NCBI GenBank assembly: GCA_001823535.1
Contig: MHUT01000004.1
Location: 1 to 35,371, forward strand
Source: Candidatus Yonathbacteria bacterium RIFCSPHIGHO2_02_FULL_44_14
GTDB taxonomy: Bacteria; Patescibacteriota; Minisyncoccia; Phycocordibacterales; UBA1550
DNA length: 35,371 bases
Direction: 5' to 3'
The position numbers and the translations under genes are program-made. Numbering within the stretch: the first letter of the stretch is position 1; the number at the start of each line of letters is the position of its first letter. Below are positions 26,999 to 35,371 of this stretch, piece after piece. A model generated the notes under the pieces. That model had not been told where the DNA came from and made no database searches. It was given only the letters and a program-made list of their open reading frames with translations.

Positions 26999-29900
26999 CT
27001 ATTTATTTAGTGCAAACACAAACGAGATGCCATCGATATCGAATGGCTCGCCCACCGCTTCTCCAAACACAATATCGCGAACAAGCGCGGTTTTTTTCAA
27101 CTCATCGGCAAACTCACTCACAAGGGATTGTCCTTCGGCTGTCGTTTTAATATTTAGTGTAACAATGTCCGATTGCGCAAGTTTGGATTCCTTGCGAAGC
27201 CCCTGCACAGTGCGAAGCAGGTCCCGAAACTGCCCCTCAAGCTTGAGCTCAGGCGTAATATTCGTATCGAGAACAACATCATCGAGAAGATTGCTGTCAA
27301 ACGCAATTTCTTTCATATTCACCTCATCCGCGATAAGTGCGATGTATTCCTCCTCTCCTTTGAGTGAGGAGTTTTTAACAGTAAGACGCGCAAGCGGTTG
27401 GCGAACTTTTATACTGTCCTTTGCGCGCGCTTCAAGGGCGAGCGACACAATGTGGCGTACATCGCTCATCTTTTTCAGAACGCTTATTTCATGATCCTCG
27501 CACATTGTCGCGGGCAGATTGTTCCATGCTTCGAGATGCACGCTTTCTTTCTTCCCCCCAGCGCGGTTATAGATATGCTCCGCAAGAAACGGCATTACCG
27601 GTGCAATAAGTTTTGAAAACTCGAGAAGCACAACGCGTGTTGTCGCAATGGCAGACGCACGGTCATTAATGTCATCCGATTTGAATCGATCTCGAGAACG
27701 GCGCAAATACCAGGTGGACAAATCATCTACAAAAAGATTGAGCGGTTTCACCGCGCGGTCGAGTTCATACGCATCAAGTGCCGCAGTTTCTTCGCAGGTG
27801 ACCTCTCTCAGGCGAGCAAGTATCCACAAATCGAGAACGTTTGGTGCGTGTGCTTCCACACTATCATCTACTCGGTAAAGCTCATAGAAAGAGAGCACGT
27901 TGGACAGGCGCATAATAAATTTCTTTACCACCTCGTCAACACCGCGCGACAAAAAAGCAAGGTCTTCAGCGTGTACAATCGGCGACGACAAAAGATAGTA
28001 CCGCACCGCATCAGCGCCGTATTGATTAAGCACCTCTTGTGGGTCCGGATAATTCTTGCGGCTTTTAGACATTTTTTGCCCATCTTCAGCGAGAACCATC
28101 CCATTCACTATTACATTTTTAAACGGCGCTTTGTCAAAAAGTGCGACCGAAAGAACCATCATAGAATAGAACCACCCACGGGTTTGATCCACACCCTCCG
28201 CAATAAAATTCGCAGGGAAATTTTTTTCAAAGAGTTCTTTGTTTTCAAATGGATAATGAAACTGCGCGTACGGCATTGAGCCAGACTCGAACCAGCAGTC
28301 AAACACATACGGCACACGGAGCATCAATCCCTCACATTTACACAAAACTTCCACCGTATCTATGTACGGCAAGTGTAGATCAAATTCAAAATCTGCATTG
28401 TGGGGAAACGGCACAAAAGATAGCTCGGTCACTTCTCCAGGCATCACAAAATCTTCTTTGCCGTCTTTGAGCAGAACACCACGCGCAATTCCCGCACCTT
28501 CGACACCAGTCGAGAGCATCCATATTGGGTATTCGTGGGTGACAATAAGGATTGTCTTGCCTGCATACTCTTTCTCGAGATCCTCGAGAAGTGCCATTGT
28601 ACGACGCTTCACGTCGAGGAGATTTTCACCGCCCTCCGGGCGCTTAGTAAATTTCTCCGCCGGTGAAGCAAAGTGTTTACGATACTCCTCTATGGACTTG
28701 CCATCAAACACTCCTGTGTCGATTTCCTTAATGCGTTCGTCGACAATTATTTTTCGAGTGTCAAAACTGATTGCGCTGGCGACAATCTCCGCAGTTTGCT
28801 TGGTGCGCACAAATGGCGACGTGATGATGATATCAATACCATCGTTTAAAAGTTTTTTACCAATTACTTCGACTGCATTGCGACCGTTTTCTGTCAATCC
28901 GTATGATGCGCTTCCGTCAATTTTCGAACTTACAATGCCGTGAACATTACTTTCTGCCTCACCATGTCGCATTACAAGGTATCTGTTGCCGGATTTTTTT
29001 GTGTGCTTCTCAAGCTCGGTGCGTGAGCCCAACACCTCGCGCGCGTTACATTTCTCGCATTGCCACACGGGAATAGGCGCGCCCCAAAAACGTGAGCGCG
29101 AGATAGCCCAATCGCGCGCTCCTAGTAGCCACTGCCCAAAACGGCCATCGCGCATATTTTTTGGCACCCATGAAGTGTTTGCGTTTTCCGCGATAAGTTT
29201 ATCTTTGAGTTCGGGAACTTTTACAAACCACGACTCGGCCGCATAGTTGAGGAGTGGCGTATCGCAGCGCCAACAGTGCGGATACGCGTGAATTATTTTC
29301 TCTTTCGAAAAAAGAGCATTTATTCCGGCAAGATGTTTGATAATCAAAATGTCTGTTGCTTGGTGGTCGTCCTTTGGTTTTACTGATGCACCGGCAAAAT
29401 CACGAACTTCTTTTTTCATTGTGCCATCCATTCCTACATGTTGAATAAACGGTAAATTTTCCCGTGTTCCAAGTGCCATGTCGTCCTCGCCAAAAGCGGG
29501 TGCGATATGCACAACACCAGTCCCGCTTTCCATTGTTACAAATTCCGCACCATATATCTTCCATCCATTTTCGCGGTTATCTAAGGTACCTTGTTCGGCG
29601 TAGTAATCAAAAATAGGGTTATATGATTTTCCTATTAATTCTTTACCAAGAAAACTCTCAACGATTCGCGGGTTTTTGAAGTTCTGCTTTATTTCATCGT
29701 ATCTATTTTTTGCAAAAATATAAAAAATTGTTGTTTCAATTGCTTTTGGTGGATTTTTACCCGGCTCAAGAGCGCTGGTTGCTAACTTTTCTATCCATAT
29801 ATCTTGTACTTTCACGTATTCCGATTCGGGGCTTACCGCAAGCGCTACGTTCCCGGGAAGCGTCCATGGTGTCGTCGTCCACGCAAGAATGTAGGTGCCA

Positions 29901-30559
29901 GGCTCCTTCGCGAGCTCAAATTTCGCCGTCACTGAAATATCGGTGATGTCCTTGTACCCACTGGTCACTTCATTATTTGAAAGCGTTGTTTCGCACCTCG
30001 GGCAAATGTGCATCGACTTGAAGCCCTGATACACGAGACCATTTTCATAGAGCGTTTTGAACGCCCACCAAACAGACTCGGTATAATTTGCATCCATCGT
30101 ACTGTATGAATGCTCCATGTCAATAAAACGCCCGATGCGGGGGATGAATTTTTTCCACTCGGTATCATAGCGAAATACTGACGCACGACATGCTTCATTA
30201 AATTTTCCGATACCATACGCCTTGATGTCTTTTTTGTGTCCAAGTTGAAGCTCCTTTTCAATTAAGTTTTCAATAGGGAGCCCGTGGCAATCCCAACCCC
30301 ACACGCGCCGAACATGGCGCCCACGCATTGTTTGGTAACGCGGAATCGCATCTTTGATTGTGCTGGCGAGCATGTGTCCATAATGCGGCAACCCTGTTGC
30401 AAAAGGCGGTCCATCATAAAAAACAAACTCTTCGTTTCCCTTTGTTTGCTCGAGAGACTTTTCGAAAATATGCTCGGCTTTCCAATACACAAGGGTCTCC
30501 TCCTCGCGCTTTGCGATTTCAGAAAGTTTTTTTGGTTCTTTTTCCATATTCCCATCCAT
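26999..30559 (-). CDS. ileS: Isoleucyl-tRNA synthetase with an inserted histidine-phosphatase domain
   Basis: A 1186-residue class I enzyme. The HIGH-type motif is PHYGHM (about 58-63), the CP1 editing domain is about 190-400 (AWTTTPWTLPGNVAL, GTGVVHIAPAFGEDD), KMSKS is at 829-833, and the anticodon domain follows. Editing and synthetic sites look intact. Between GSRTELEKH (about 511-519) and DLHLPYID (about 727-734), where relatives have a short loop, is a full phosphoglycerate-mutase-like domain (about 525-720). It has RHG (531-533), Arg585 in SPFVRT, Glu near 608-612 and His675 in VTHE, i.e. all catalytic residues. The frame is continuous, so this is one polypeptide, about 200 residues longer than usual. 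The phosphatase substrate is unknown. It heads the ileS-recO operon. Confidence 0.95.
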   Translation of the reverse strand: MDGNMEKEPKKLSEIAKREEETLVYWKAEHIFEKSLEQTKGNEEFVFYDGPPFATGLPHYGHMLASTIKDAIPRYQTMRGRHVRRVWGWDCHGLPIENLIEKELQLGHKKDIKAYGIGKFNEACRASVFRYDTEWKKFIPRIGRFIDMEHSYSTMDANYTESVWWAFKTLYENGLVYQGFKSMHICPRCETTLSNNEVTSGYKDITDISVTAKFELAKEPGTYILAWTTTPWTLPGNVALAVSPESEYVKVQDIWIEKLATSALEPGKNPPKAIETTIFYIFAKNRYDEIKQNFKNPRIVESFLGKELIGKSYNPIFDYYAEQGTLDNRENGWKIYGAEFVTMESGTGVVHIAPAFGEDDMALGTRENLPFIQHVGMDGTMKKEVRDFAGASVKPKDDHQATDILIIKHLAGINALFSKEKIIHAYPHCWRCDTPLLNYAAESWFVKVPELKDKLIAENANTSWVPKNMRDGRFGQWLLGARDWAISRSRFWGAPIPVWQCEKCNAREVLGSRTELEKHTKKSGNRYLVMRHGEAESNVHGIVSSKIDGSASYGLTENGRNAVEVIGKKLLNDGIDIIITSPFVRTKQTAEIVASAISFDTRKIIVDERIKEIDTGVFDGKSIEEYRKHFASPAEKFTKRPEGGENLLDVKRRTMALLEDLEKEYAGKTILIVTHEYPIWMLSTGVEGAGIARGVLLKDGKEDFVMPGEVTELSFVPFPHNADFEFDLHLPYIDTVEVLCKCEGLMLRVPYVFDCWFESGSMPYAQFHYPFENKELFEKNFPANFIAEGVDQTRGWFYSMMVLSVALFDKAPFKNVIVNGMVLAEDGQKMSKSRKNYPDPQEVLNQYGADAVRYYLLSSPIVHAEDLAFLSRGVDEVVKKFIMRLSNVLSFYELYRVDDSVEAHAPNVLDLWILARLREVTCEETAALDAYELDRAVKPLNLFVDDLSTWYLRRSRDRFKSDDINDRASAIATTRVVLLEFSKLIAPVMPFLAEHIYNRAGGKKESVHLEAWNNLPATMCEDHEISVLKKMSDVRHIVSLALEARAKDSIKVRQPLARLTVKNSSLKGEEEYIALIADEVNMKEIAFDSNLLDDVVLDTNITPELKLEGQFRDLLRTVQGLRKESKLAQSDIVTLNIKTTAEGQSLVSEFADELKKTALVRDIVFGEAVGEPFDIDGISFVFALNK
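28400..28987 (-). other. Histidine-phosphatase (PGAM-like) domain inside ileS
   Basis: The nucleotides encode IleRS residues about 525-720. The segment is a complete family fold: YLVMRHGEAESN at the start, GLTENGRNAVEVIG, TSPFVRTKQTAEIV, ERIKEIDTGVFDGKSIEEY, GGENLLDVKRR and ILIVTHEYPIWML. This order of motifs matches the cobC/phosphoglycerate-mutase branch of the histidine phosphatases. Confidence 0.88.
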
Positions 30560-31467: not shown

Positions 31468-34400
31468 CTAGATCTTCCTTAAGAATTTAAAGCTGTCTTC
31501 AAAGTTCTTGAATATGATATCAGTAATCGACTCTGTCTGGCGAGGAGTGATGACGGTGCGCGGACCGAATGAACCGAGGTTGTCACTATCATCGCTCGAG
31601 GTTACCTTGAGACGATAGATGGTGCCTGGCTTTAAGTTTGGCAGAATCACACTGTGGTTCACGATGTAAGAATCGAGCGCTTCGTTCTTGTTTGCAAGCT
31701 CGGCTGTGTCTCCCGCAGTACCTGCTCCTTCCTCGTAGTACACGGTCGAGTTCGAAGGTTCGTCGGTCACCCAGCTGACGATGGTCTGAATGCGGTCGGT
31801 ACGTCCGGGCACGAGGGCGTTGTCGACTTTGAATCCCGAGATAGCGGGAGGAGTTACATCGCGCGAAGTGGTGACAGAGAGCGAGGATCCCGCTTCAGCA
31901 ACATTGCCTTGCTCGGTTGCTCCGGAGAGGTTCACCTCGTAGGAGACACCTGAAGGAAGGTTCTCGATCTTCATGGAGTGAGAGGTCTTCTTTGCATCGT
32001 CGGTTTTTCTTTCTGTGATGCCAGACTTCACATTTCTGTACTCGACAATGGACGATGTTGGTTGATCGGTAGTCCAAACCACCGTGAAGGAGTCTTTCTT
32101 CCTTTCAACAATAGAACCGGCGATCTTTGATGCCTTGGTGATGAAAGTGATGTCTGCTGATTTGCCGAGCACCTTTGGCAAGGAGAAGGCGCGGGCTTGG
32201 ACGTGGTACTTGGTATTGCCCTTGAGTCCGGTGAGATTGAGAGAGTGGTCAAGTGTCTTCTCTGTCGTGTCGGATACTTCGCCGGTGTATGGGTTGTCTT
32301 TTGTGGTGTCGTATGAGCCGTCATCCGCATACACGACCACAGGGAATGCTTTGATGTTTGTTCTGAATGAAATGGTTGCGCCGGCTTCCGTGATGTCGGT
32401 GATTGCAGGCTTAGAGACGAACGGTGGCACAAGGGATGGGAGGATAGACTCAATGGTGTCCTCGATTTCTCTCTGGAACTGCTCAATGTTCTCGATCTTG
32501 GCGAGGTCTTTGAGGTTCTCTGTGAGGAAAGAGGTTTTGAAGGTTTGATCGCCTGAGGTGCCGGTGTTGCCGGCTTTGTCGATGGCTTTCACGCGAAGAT
32601 GGTACTCAGTACCAAGAGTGAGCCCGCGAAGGATAACAGAATGCGAAGTTCCCCAATTGAAATTTGCGGTATTGCTGTTATATGAGGTATCCTTGCCAAA
32701 ATCAACTCCGCTCACCGTCTCTTCATTCGTCACAAACCCCACCGCCGCCCCAAACGGAGTGATATCTGAAACAGTTACATTAGAAATTGACGGGGGTGTC
32801 GTGTCGGGAGTTTCGCCCTCTTGTTTCCGTGCACCCGAAGAAATGATTGTGACAGTTACTGCACCTGTTGAGGGTGTGGTAAATGACCACTCACCAGATG
32901 ACGTGCCGTTCCCTGCCGCATCAACAGACTTCACGGTGACATAGTAGAGTGTTTCAGGAAGAAGAGCGTTACCACCTGTCACCAGTGAATTTGTAATATT
33001 GTCATATCTGCTTGTCGCCGCAGAAAGAGTTGCCACATGGAAAATCGACATCGTGGGTTCAATGGCGGTACGGTTTAAATACTGTGCGGTGTTCCCCGTC
33101 CGGGAAGTAGTGTCGTAAAATACCTGATTTGTTGCAAGCTCATCAGTCTGCCATACAATGACTGCGGCAGAAGAAGAAAGAACGGGCGTCGATGTGCCGG
33201 TAATCGTTGGTGGGGTGGTGTCACGAAGTGTGACAAAGCTAAAATATTGACCGCTATTGTTGTCCGTTGAAGAAAGAGCTCCCGCGTCCGTCGAAACGAC
33301 TTTGTAGTAATACGTTTGCCCTGAGGTCAGGCCGGTAAGGCCAACCTGGTGTTGATACGCGCCGTCGGTTCCAGCCACCGTGACGATACTTCCCGTTGCG
33401 GGCGTTGAGCCATTCACCCCAGCAGTAGAGACCGCATAGTATACCTTTGAGTCAGAACTCGTATTTGTATTCCAGAAAATCGTTGCTGAGGTGTCGGTAA
33501 TCTCGCGCTCGGTGACGTTTGAAATCACTGGACCGCTCACGGTGGTAAATGTTCCACCATGAGCACTGACCAACGATGCTGAACTCACGTTCCCCGTGAT
33601 ATCTCTAGCGAGAACACAAAAGACGTAGCTCGTCGCGGGAGTGAGTCCTGTCAGGTATATGCTGTGGTTTACCGTATAGGTGCCGGTGGAGACGGAGTTT
33701 GTCGCGCTCGGACAGGAAGTTGGGGCTCCACCCGTGTAGCTCGCGTACCGCACCGTCGAAGTGGCAAGCTCCCCTGTCGTCATGGAATTGTCAGTGTATG
33801 TGCTAAAGGTAATATTTGCAGACGAGTTTCCAACCGTAGGTGCGGCAATGCCGGCAAACGGTATGTACGGCGCAGTCACATCGATCCCGCCTGAACCGTC
33901 CGGGACGTCAGACTGCACTGCGGTGTAGTTTGAAATGTCGCCATTCGAACTAACTGACGTCACTTTGTAATACTGTGTTGAGCTCGTAGCCGAGGTGATG
34001 GTGTGAATGTAGTAATTCTGGGCTTGATCGGCAACTGTTGCGAGAAGGCTGTAAGTGCTGCCATCTGTTGAATGGTATACCTTGTACGAGCCAAAAGTAG
34101 CCGGGGTTGATGATGCCCAGTTTAAAAATTCTCGGTAGGTATTGGTCGAAGTATTTGAAATATCCGAGTAGCCAAAGTTTGCGGGCATCGCAGGAGCGAC
34201 GAGCGCAGGCGCCGTCACATTGCCGTACTGGTCGCGAACTTGGAGGTACACGGTTTCAGCATTTGGCGCGCCGGTGGCAGACCAATTCACTGGAGTTGCA
34301 ATGCCTGAAGTAACAGATGTCCACGTGGCACATGTCGCAAAGTCGGCGGTGTTGCATAGGCGGTATTCGATCGTTGAGCTGTCGGTCGCGGTAATGTTTA

Positions 34401-35371
34401 CGACGTCTTGCGTGCCAGATGAATTAAGGTTGGCAACAACAACTGGTGCGGTAGTATCGAGTGTGAATGTATTTGAGGTTCCATACCCAAGGTTGTTTGC
34501 TGCATCGCGGTCATTCACTTTGATACGGATCGTTTGTGTGTTTACTTTGTACTGAGACGCATAGTCGGTAGAGGGTGTCCATGTGATACTCTTACCAACA
34601 CCCAGCGCGACGCCGGTGCCCACATGCCCAGACACGGTCACGGCATCCGCCCACACTTCCGTCCCAGTGGAACAGTTGGTGGTGCAGTATTGCAAAGTGA
34701 CATCAACGATATTTCCGATGCCATTGTCGCTATCTGCGACATCATAGCCCACGGTTACGGCACCGCTACTTCCCTGCGATGCGGTGATGTTTGTAATTAC
34801 CGGGGGTCCGTTTACCACATACTGCACCGTGATGCTCGTGATAGTGGGAGTGGCGCTACCGCCTGAAGTAAGGAATGCTTTGTATTGTAAATATCGGTCA
34901 TCACTTCCTAAGCGGAGCGGATGGCTCGTAGACAGCCCGCCAACAACGCCGGTGCTTACGGTGAAGTAGTCGGTGCCATCGCAGGTAATGCTTGACCCGC
35001 ACCAGTTGGACCACGTGGCGCCGTCGGGAGATGAGCGCACTTGGAGCTTCACCACTTCGCTTGCGCTCGTGTTGGACGCAGACCAGAGGACGTTTGAGAT
35101 CAAGCTTGCCGATGATTCTGCATCGTACTTTGACGAGGTGATGTCTCCGCTTGTGCTGTACTGATTGTAGTTGATGGTGACTGAGTCAAGGGTTGGGGTT
35201 ACGGCAGCGTTAGTAGTGGAAAGATTTGCGCGGTATTGAATGTATCGATTACCTGCGAGACCAGCAATGCTTCCCCCGCTTGAGATGCCGGTCTGCCATG
35301 CAGTCCATGTGCCGTCTGGAGTCGCAATATTGCCGGCTCGTGCATCAACGGTGAGCGTCTGCCCGTTTAGT
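31468..35371 (-). CDS. Giant fibronectin type III surface protein, N-terminus outside the window
   Basis: The frame is open to the window end (1300 codons seen), so the start and any signal peptide are missing; an apparent TTG start at 35103 is not real, since the frame and the domain continue upstream. The first visible part is a beta domain with TWTAWQTGIS and SPDGATWSNW repeats. About eight FN3-like domains follow, each with a TPPxIxxxT-type opening and a strand such as HSLNLTGLKGNTKYHVQARA. A short helical linker (LTENLKDLAKIENIEQFQREIE) separates the fifth and sixth. The tail ends NFEDSFKFLRKI with no sorting signal. It is probably a long adhesin or sheath protein that reaches partner cells; that is inferred from fold and size. 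Confidence 0.85.
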   Translation of the reverse strand, partial: LNGQTLTVDARAGNIATPDGTWTAWQTGISSGGSIAGLAGNRYIQYRANLSTTNAAVTPTLDSVTINYNQYSTSGDITSSKYDAESSASLISNVLWSASNTSASEVVKLQVRSSPDGATWSNWCGSSITCDGTDYFTVSTGVVGGLSTSHPLRLGSDDRYLQYKAFLTSGGSATPTITSITVQYVVNGPPVITNITASQGSSGAVTVGYDVADSDNGIGNIVDVTLQYCTTNCSTGTEVWADAVTVSGHVGTGVALGVGKSITWTPSTDYASQYKVNTQTIRIKVNDRDAANNLGYGTSNTFTLDTTAPVVVANLNSSGTQDVVNITATDSSTIEYRLCNTADFATCATWTSVTSGIATPVNWSATGAPNAETVYLQVRDQYGNVTAPALVAPAMPANFGYSDISNTSTNTYREFLNWASSTPATFGSYKVYHSTDGSTYSLLATVADQAQNYYIHTITSATSSTQYYKVTSVSSNGDISNYTAVQSDVPDGSGGIDVTAPYIPFAGIAAPTVGNSSANITFSTYTDNSMTTGELATSTVRYASYTGGAPTSCPSATNSVSTGTYTVNHSIYLTGLTPATSYVFCVLARDITGNVSSASLVSAHGGTFTTVSGPVISNVTEREITDTSATIFWNTNTSSDSKVYYAVSTAGVNGSTPATGSIVTVAGTDGAYQHQVGLTGLTSGQTYYYKVVSTDAGALSSTDNNSGQYFSFVTLRDTTPPTITGTSTPVLSSSAAVIVWQTDELATNQVFYDTTSRTGNTAQYLNRTAIEPTMSIFHVATLSAATSRYDNITNSLVTGGNALLPETLYYVTVKSVDAAGNGTSSGEWSFTTPSTGAVTVTIISSGARKQEGETPDTTPPSISNVTVSDITPFGAAVGFVTNEETVSGVDFGKDTSYNSNTANFNWGTSHSVILRGLTLGTEYHLRVKAIDKAGNTGTSGDQTFKTSFLTENLKDLAKIENIEQFQREIEDTIESILPSLVPPFVSKPAITDITEAGATISFRTNIKAFPVVVYADDGSYDTTKDNPYTGEVSDTTEKTLDHSLNLTGLKGNTKYHVQARAFSLPKVLGKSADITFITKASKIAGSIVERKKDSFTVVWTTDQPTSSIVEYRNVKSGITERKTDDAKKTSHSMKIENLPSGVSYEVNLSGATEQGNVAEAGSSLSVTTSRDVTPPAISGFKVDNALVPGRTDRIQTIVSWVTDEPSNSTVYYEEGAGTAGDTAELANKNEALDSYIVNHSVILPNLKPGTIYRLKVTSSDDSDNLGSFGPRTVITPRQTESITDIIFKNFEDSFKFLRKI

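Follow-up and report, generated by a model that had tools for sequence, protein, structure and literature searches.

Few enzymes are as conserved as the aminoacyl-tRNA synthetases, and the extra domains that they carry are usually found at the ends. In the stretch of DNA analyzed here (the window, 35,371 nucleotides from Candidatus Yonathbacteria bacterium RIFCSPHIGHO2_02_FULL_44_14), the gene for isoleucyl-tRNA synthetase (IleRS) carries a histidine phosphatase domain within its catalytic core. This locus raises the question of whether the domain is a genuine and working part of the enzyme and, if so, what ties a phosphatase to IleRS.

The Synthetase Is a Complete Type 2 IleRS

The open reading frame translates into 1186 amino acids with zero internal stops, and it was identified as IleRS by the equivalog model TIGR00392, with 835.7 bits over a cutoff of 621.4. 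It belongs to type 2, the eukaryote-like, mupirocin-resistant type, and the best solved structures for it are IleRS2 from Priestia megaterium, which is the closest one at 31% identity, and the IleRS of Thermus and of the eukaryotic cytosol. An AlphaFold2 model of the full-length protein reached a mean pLDDT of 90.7 and a pTM of 0.83, and its synthetase core was comparable to that of IleRS2 (TM 0.81 of the target). The parts of the synthetase are the following:

26999..30559, minus strand: ileS, isoleucyl-tRNA synthetase with an internal phosphatase, 1186 aa (TIGR00392)
29000..30490, minus strand: first class I catalytic segment and CP1 editing region, residues 24-520 (PF00133)
30374..30385, minus strand: HxGH (HIGH) motif, HYGH, residues 59-62 (sequence)
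28061..28075, minus strand: KMSKS motif, residues 829-833 (sequence)
27392..27832, minus strand: anticodon-binding domain, residues 910-1056 (PF08264)
27005..27391, minus strand: C-terminal DUF5915 region, residues 1057-1185 (PF19302)

The original prediction that the synthetase and editing motifs are intact was confirmed, as HYGH, KMSKS and the CP1 region are all present, and K829 and K832 are invariant across 69 IleRS. Elsewhere in the window, at 31468-35103, a 1211-aa protein called with a TTG start codon contains fibronectin-III and purple-acid-phosphatase N-terminal repeats, and is probably a large surface protein.

The Insert Is a Predicted Histidine Phosphatase with a Conserved Active Site

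The profile PF00300 (His_Phos_1) covers residues 528-692 of the IleRS (E=9.2e-32, 110.7 bits, cutoff 21.7), and alignment with relatives lacking the insert set its limits at residues 524-722. In one of these relatives (L034), the sequence GSTQELKAHSASTIAEQADLHRPNIDS runs uninterrupted over the insertion site. The domain and its surroundings are as follows:

28394..28990, minus strand: inserted histidine phosphatase domain, residues 524-722 (PF00300, alignments, AlphaFold2, Foldseek)
28964..28969, minus strand: R531-H532 of RHG, phosphate-binding Arg and nucleophilic His (invariant in 150/150 IleRS inserts)
28805..28807, minus strand: R585, second catalytic Arg (invariant in 150/150)
28724..28726, minus strand: E612, general acid (Glu in 148/150, Asp in 2/150)
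28535..28537, minus strand: H675, second catalytic His (invariant in 150/150)
29048..29059, minus strand: first half of a split zinc-ribbon-like element, C501-x2-C504 (covariation of cysteines)
28334..28342, minus strand: second half of the same element, C740-x-C742 (covariation of cysteines)

These limits agree within a few bases with the 28400-28987 proposed originally, and the proposed placement after CP1, within the catalytic core, was also right; more exactly, the domain lies inside a CxxC...CxC zinc-ribbon-like element. The four cysteines C501, C504, C740 and C742 behave as all-or-none, with all four in 45 of 69 IleRS and none in 22, indicating that a zinc-ribbon-like element located after CP1 is interrupted by the domain. 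In the T. thermophilus IleRS, zinc is bound at a matching CxxC...CxC.

The completeness of the phosphatase domain, first recognized from its RHG motif (R531-H532-G533), second Arg, catalytic Glu and second His, was borne out by the PF00300 match and by residue alignment. The 150 inserts compared were gathered from the loci of this analysis, a few of which are present under more than one id, and the catalytic residues are likewise invariant in the 69 full-length IleRS; E645 and R653 are further conserved positions. Modeled alone with AlphaFold2 (pLDDT 95.6, pTM 0.92), the domain adopts a phosphoglycerate-mutase-like fold, with TM values of 0.75-0.82 to PspA, GpgP and PhoE. The best Foldseek matches were PspA (4ij6, a phosphoserine phosphatase), GpgP (Rv2419c) and PhoE (1h2e), and PhoE and PspA were also the best PDB matches in a profile search. 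The insert can thus be assigned, from sequence and predicted fold, to a full histidine phosphatase of branch 1 on the PhoE/PspA side, its nearest folds being phosphatases rather than mutases. None of the curated phosphatase subfamily models reaches its cutoff on the IleRS domain.

The insert might replace a missing phosphoglycerate mutase of reduced genomes, and no iPGM (PF06415) is encoded by the window's genome or, in all, by 32 of the 41 genomes of its genus and order set. Against this, the insert coexists with iPGM in G014, G017, G019, G021, G023, G026, G031 and G033, its closest relatives by sequence and fold are phosphatases, and the dPGM model NF038349 (dPGM_arch) gives only 87.6 bits for a cutoff of 225, in such a way that this replacement seems very unlikely. 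Neither a phosphoglycerate mutase gap nor a pyrophosphatase gap explains the distribution of the insert.

A purely structural insert with a decorative active site would suit the short linkers and the way in which the domain is built into the zinc-ribbon-like loop. The catalytic positions are nevertheless invariant or conservatively changed in the 150 inserts, separate-gene versions of the domain exist, and insert-less IleRS are common and intact. A decorative domain was rejected on residue conservation, and we give this possibility hardly any weight.

The Insert Is Genuine and Maintained by Selection

The set of 41 genomes consisted of the one that contains the window plus 40 others from its genus and order. 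Of the 39 genomes with a detectable IleRS, 38 have the insert in the same position, G036 being the only one without it. No IleRS was detected in the other two (G007 and G008, from the same genus), the assemblies of which are 97% and 93% complete, pointing to a missing contig or to a very different IleRS. An absence from close relatives combined with an assembly join had been named at the outset as the outcome that would speak against the domain; in addition to its presence in these relatives, the insert occupies this position in a genome that consists of one contig (G017) and on the 693-kb contig AWSN01000001.1 (L146), which excludes an assembly join. With its class-wide occurrence (see below), both a join and chance were ruled out.

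The composition of the insert (GC/GC3 of 0.469/0.457) is close to that of the rest of the gene (0.461/0.469). In comparisons of close pairs, dN/dS comes to about 0.03-0.10 within the insert, similar to the remainder of the gene, and column conservation is 53% for the insert, 55% for CP1 and 57% for the anticodon domain. To judge from these sequence comparisons, strong purifying selection acts on the insert. Together with the active site kept in the 150 inserts (apart from two Glu to Asp changes), this agrees with the original view of a widely conserved and probably active domain.

The Phosphatase Is Tied to ileS in Many CPR Genomes

In a sample of 113 genomes evenly drawn from the class, in which the domain was counted at E <= 1e-30, 86 genomes contained it, 76 in long frames and 10 as separate genes. 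All 13 long frames checked were IleRS, and 6 of the 10 separate genes adjoin an insert-less ileS. The mapping of the insertion among CPR IleRS that had been suggested thus yielded 38 of 39 genomes at the genus and order level and 76 of 113 (long frames) in the class. In a phylum sample of 381 evenly drawn genomes, the phosphatase was found in IleRS-length frames in at least about 60, a hand count among the matches listed and hence a lower bound.

From a scan of 84,980 GTDB species genomes, the 80 closest relatives of the domain were kept. Of these, 78 were inside IleRS, and the other two, in L162 (Staskawiczbacteria) and L173 (Nealsonbacteria), were separate genes immediately upstream of an ileS without the insert. 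The named hosts of these relatives are nearly all CPR/Patescibacteria. A contig titled as the Spirochaetia MAG PowLak16_MAG37 (L102) also encodes a CPR-type IleRS with the insert, and it is probably a mis-binned contig or bin contamination.

At seven loci (L068, L071, L173, L182, L222, L223 and L224) the gene order is argS-phosphatase-ileS, and insert carriers read argS-ileS with the phosphatase inside at the corresponding place (L233, L235, L238 and L241). The phosphatase and IleRS activities appear linked, because insert-less relatives often keep the phosphatase as a neighboring gene, and a separate gene adjoining ileS speaks in favor of a true link to IleRS. No version of the domain was detected in the relatives G236 and G311, in such a way that it is not essential everywhere.

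Some free-standing phosphatases were observed, by eye, in other contexts. One of the IleRS clade lies at L184:3220-7168 among genes resembling a dTDP-rhamnose cluster. At L044:1198-2441 (the window's genome, contig 6) and L183:3588-4597, free-standing histidine phosphatase genes overlap a Nudix-like gene, possibly as a nucleotide-handling pair.

The Domain Has Been Lost, Relocated and Replaced

Trees of the phosphatases and of the synthetases were obtained by quick searches and contain many weak forks. The main IleRS clade of the phosphatase tree, with an SH-aLRT support of 98, consists of 30 inserts, four separate genes adjoining ileS and four other members. In the synthetase tree, built without the insert columns, carriers, non-carriers and genomes with the separate gene are interleaved. 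The inserts of L018 and L029 belong to a different histidine phosphatase subfamily (99) and occupy the same site. In the insert-free tree, their synthetases branch from among normal carriers, and L034 represents a loss beside L025 (99). These patterns support that the domain has been lost, relocated and replaced in place.

The seven genomes examined with a separate phosphatase in or beside the IleRS clades all have an insert-less IleRS, and the separate phosphatases of the insert carriers G291, G278, G412 and G000 fall outside these clades. This complementarity between the inserted and separate forms is not universal, because several more distant insert-less genomes (G107, G249, G390 and others) have only out-of-clade phosphatases.

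Phosphatases Also Occur at Other Sites and in ValRS

Three IleRS of about 1450-1570 aa, from other CPR lineages, carry additional or displaced domains: two histidine phosphatases in L076:524-4873, three at three sites in L077:667-5382, and one at a different site together with a GNAT domain (residues 666-764) in L078:1638-5990. Valyl-tRNA synthetases (ValRS) with a histidine phosphatase at the homologous loop were found at no fewer than ten loci of other CPR genomes, among them:

L080:639-3422, L081:1094-3877, L082:690-3425 and L083:605-3307: ValRS with histidine phosphatase
L084:1207-4512, L085:1375-5208 (two copies), L089:1026-4004 and L094:3-1634: ValRS with histidine phosphatase

The ValRS inserts lie outside the main IleRS clade of the phosphatase tree, seven of them forming one clade (96), and their insertion was independent of that into IleRS. 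The general-acid position is altered in L084 and L089, the latter also lacking the second His, and some ValRS inserts may therefore be decaying. In L086:195-4037 and L088:1-3657, an alpha/beta-hydrolase (PF06821) lies just ahead of the phosphatase of ValRS, and L088 has an additional HAD domain at residues 171-284. One fusion without a synthetase was noted, at L090:1685-3556, in which an MFS/Atg22-like transporter of 624 aa ends in a C-terminal histidine phosphatase.

This variety could mean that the loop simply tolerates folded domains, with a phosphatase unrelated to translation being retained since ileS is essential. The use of one site by different subfamilies (L018 and L029), the three sites in L077, the GNAT domain of L078 and the hydrolase and HAD domains of the ValRS all fit such parking of a domain, and by analogy so would the MetRS of Mycoplasma penetrans, which is fused to an aminotransferase and in which the two activities are independent (PMC13215547). 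Parking alone does not predict, however, a separate gene of the same clade often right beside ileS; moreover, the 80 best GTDB relatives are all tied to IleRS, and where the domain lies in a long frame, its host is IleRS or ValRS rather than some other large protein. We consider this explanation possible, and on the unlikely side.

What the Phosphatase May Do

As a whole, the data make it rather probable that most IleRS of Paceibacteria-type CPR are bifunctional, combining a complete type 2 synthetase with an active, self-contained phosphatase of PhoE/PspA type that is kept with IleRS. The phosphatase, a putative phosphomonoesterase, would sit in the zinc-ribbon-like loop between CP1 and the second catalytic half. 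It would act through a phosphohistidine intermediate, as is usual in the histidine phosphatase superfamily, and as a self-contained module its chemistry would run apart from charging. Its carriage by IleRS, or its translation beside it, would fix the phosphatase to IleRS ratio and their closeness. PhoE-type enzymes are promiscuous and their sequence does not fix the substrate; our guess is a small phosphomonoester, either a nucleotide by-product or a phosphometabolite, connected with aminoacyl-tRNA synthesis.

Another reading is that the phosphatase has a direct part in the cycle of aminoacylation or editing, or in the regulation of that cycle, with AMP, pyrophosphate, adenosine polyphosphates or an alarmone as the ligand. 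It would account for the dedicated linkage to IleRS and for the independent insertions into ValRS, a sister synthetase that also has CP1 editing. An alarmone had been offered as an example of the substrate in the original prediction, and this did not hold up as a specific one: RelA/SpoT (PF04607) was not found in seven insert-bearing relatives, in such a way that (p)ppGpp cannot be the general substrate and a role in alarmone hydrolysis only is unlikely. Ap4A offers no terminal phosphate to histidine phosphatase chemistry. The window's genome and 30 of 40 relatives encode a soluble pyrophosphatase, in a search of soluble types other than family II, and a replacement of pyrophosphatase is accordingly not supported. 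Finally, the separate-gene version implies that physical insertion is not required. We regard a direct role as improbable.

A self-contained activity tied to IleRS seems to fit the sequence data better than participation in the charging reaction, because of the separate gene, the replacement by another subfamily, the other IleRS sites and the ValRS insertions. The subfamily swaps, other sites and other hosts also indicate that the precise position of the insert is not critical. The other sites, the ValRS hosts and the GNAT, HAD and alpha/beta-hydrolase inserts would also fit a merely permissive loop, which weighs against the bifunctional reading. A more remote and quite speculative variant is that enzymes with a protective or regulatory role (phosphatases repeatedly, but also GNAT, alpha/beta-hydrolase and HAD) dock at the CP loops of CPR IleRS and ValRS and clear phosphorylated or nucleotide-like inhibitors or by-products. 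If true, it would represent an embedded quality-control or self-resistance module at the synthetase itself.

Under the favored reading of a bifunctional enzyme, an intact and apparently active enzyme is maintained inside the catalytic core of IleRS across most of a bacterial class. The phosphatase has been swapped, moved out into a neighboring gene, raised to two or three copies per enzyme and separately gained by ValRS, and its presence as a neighboring gene in relatives points to a function shared with IleRS. CPR bacteria are hard to culture, and these sequences raise the testable question of why a phosphatase is needed by IleRS and ValRS.

Comparison with Known Systems

No description of a phosphatase-in-IleRS fusion was found among the open full-text papers in PMC. 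Protein-family databases may contain the architecture without remark. Other type 2 IleRS (the P. megaterium IleRS2, 8c8v, and the eukaryotic cytosolic IleRS) have in common with the window IleRS the synthetase core, CP1, anticodon and C-terminal regions; in contrast, 8c8u and 8c8v lack the insert of about 200 aa in the zinc-ribbon-like loop, their matched stretches ending at 478 and resuming at 480 at the site. PhoE (1ebb/1h2e, Geobacillus) and PspA (4ij5/4ij6, Hydrogenobacter) share with the insert the fold, the RHG motif, the second Arg, the general-acid Glu and the second His, but they are free-standing proteins of about 205 aa, whereas the IleRS domain, about 25% identical, sits inside a synthetase. 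The family NF040702 (ileS_w_GNAT) is likewise an IleRS with an extra enzyme domain, but this is an acetyltransferase and not a phosphatase; the window IleRS scores 338 bits for a cutoff of 1999 and lacks the GNAT domain.

The nearest precedent is the M. penetrans MetRS, also a synthetase joined to another enzyme and encoded by a reduced genome, although there the fusion is N-terminal, the enzyme is a different one and its link to methionine is metabolic (PMC13215547). Outside synthetases, the nearest likeness is the mycobacterial MutT1, in which a Nudix domain is combined with an RHG histidine phosphatase, that is, a phosphatase of this type joined to a nucleotide-handling enzyme, with the difference that its fusion is C-terminal and not within a synthetase (PMC11784022).
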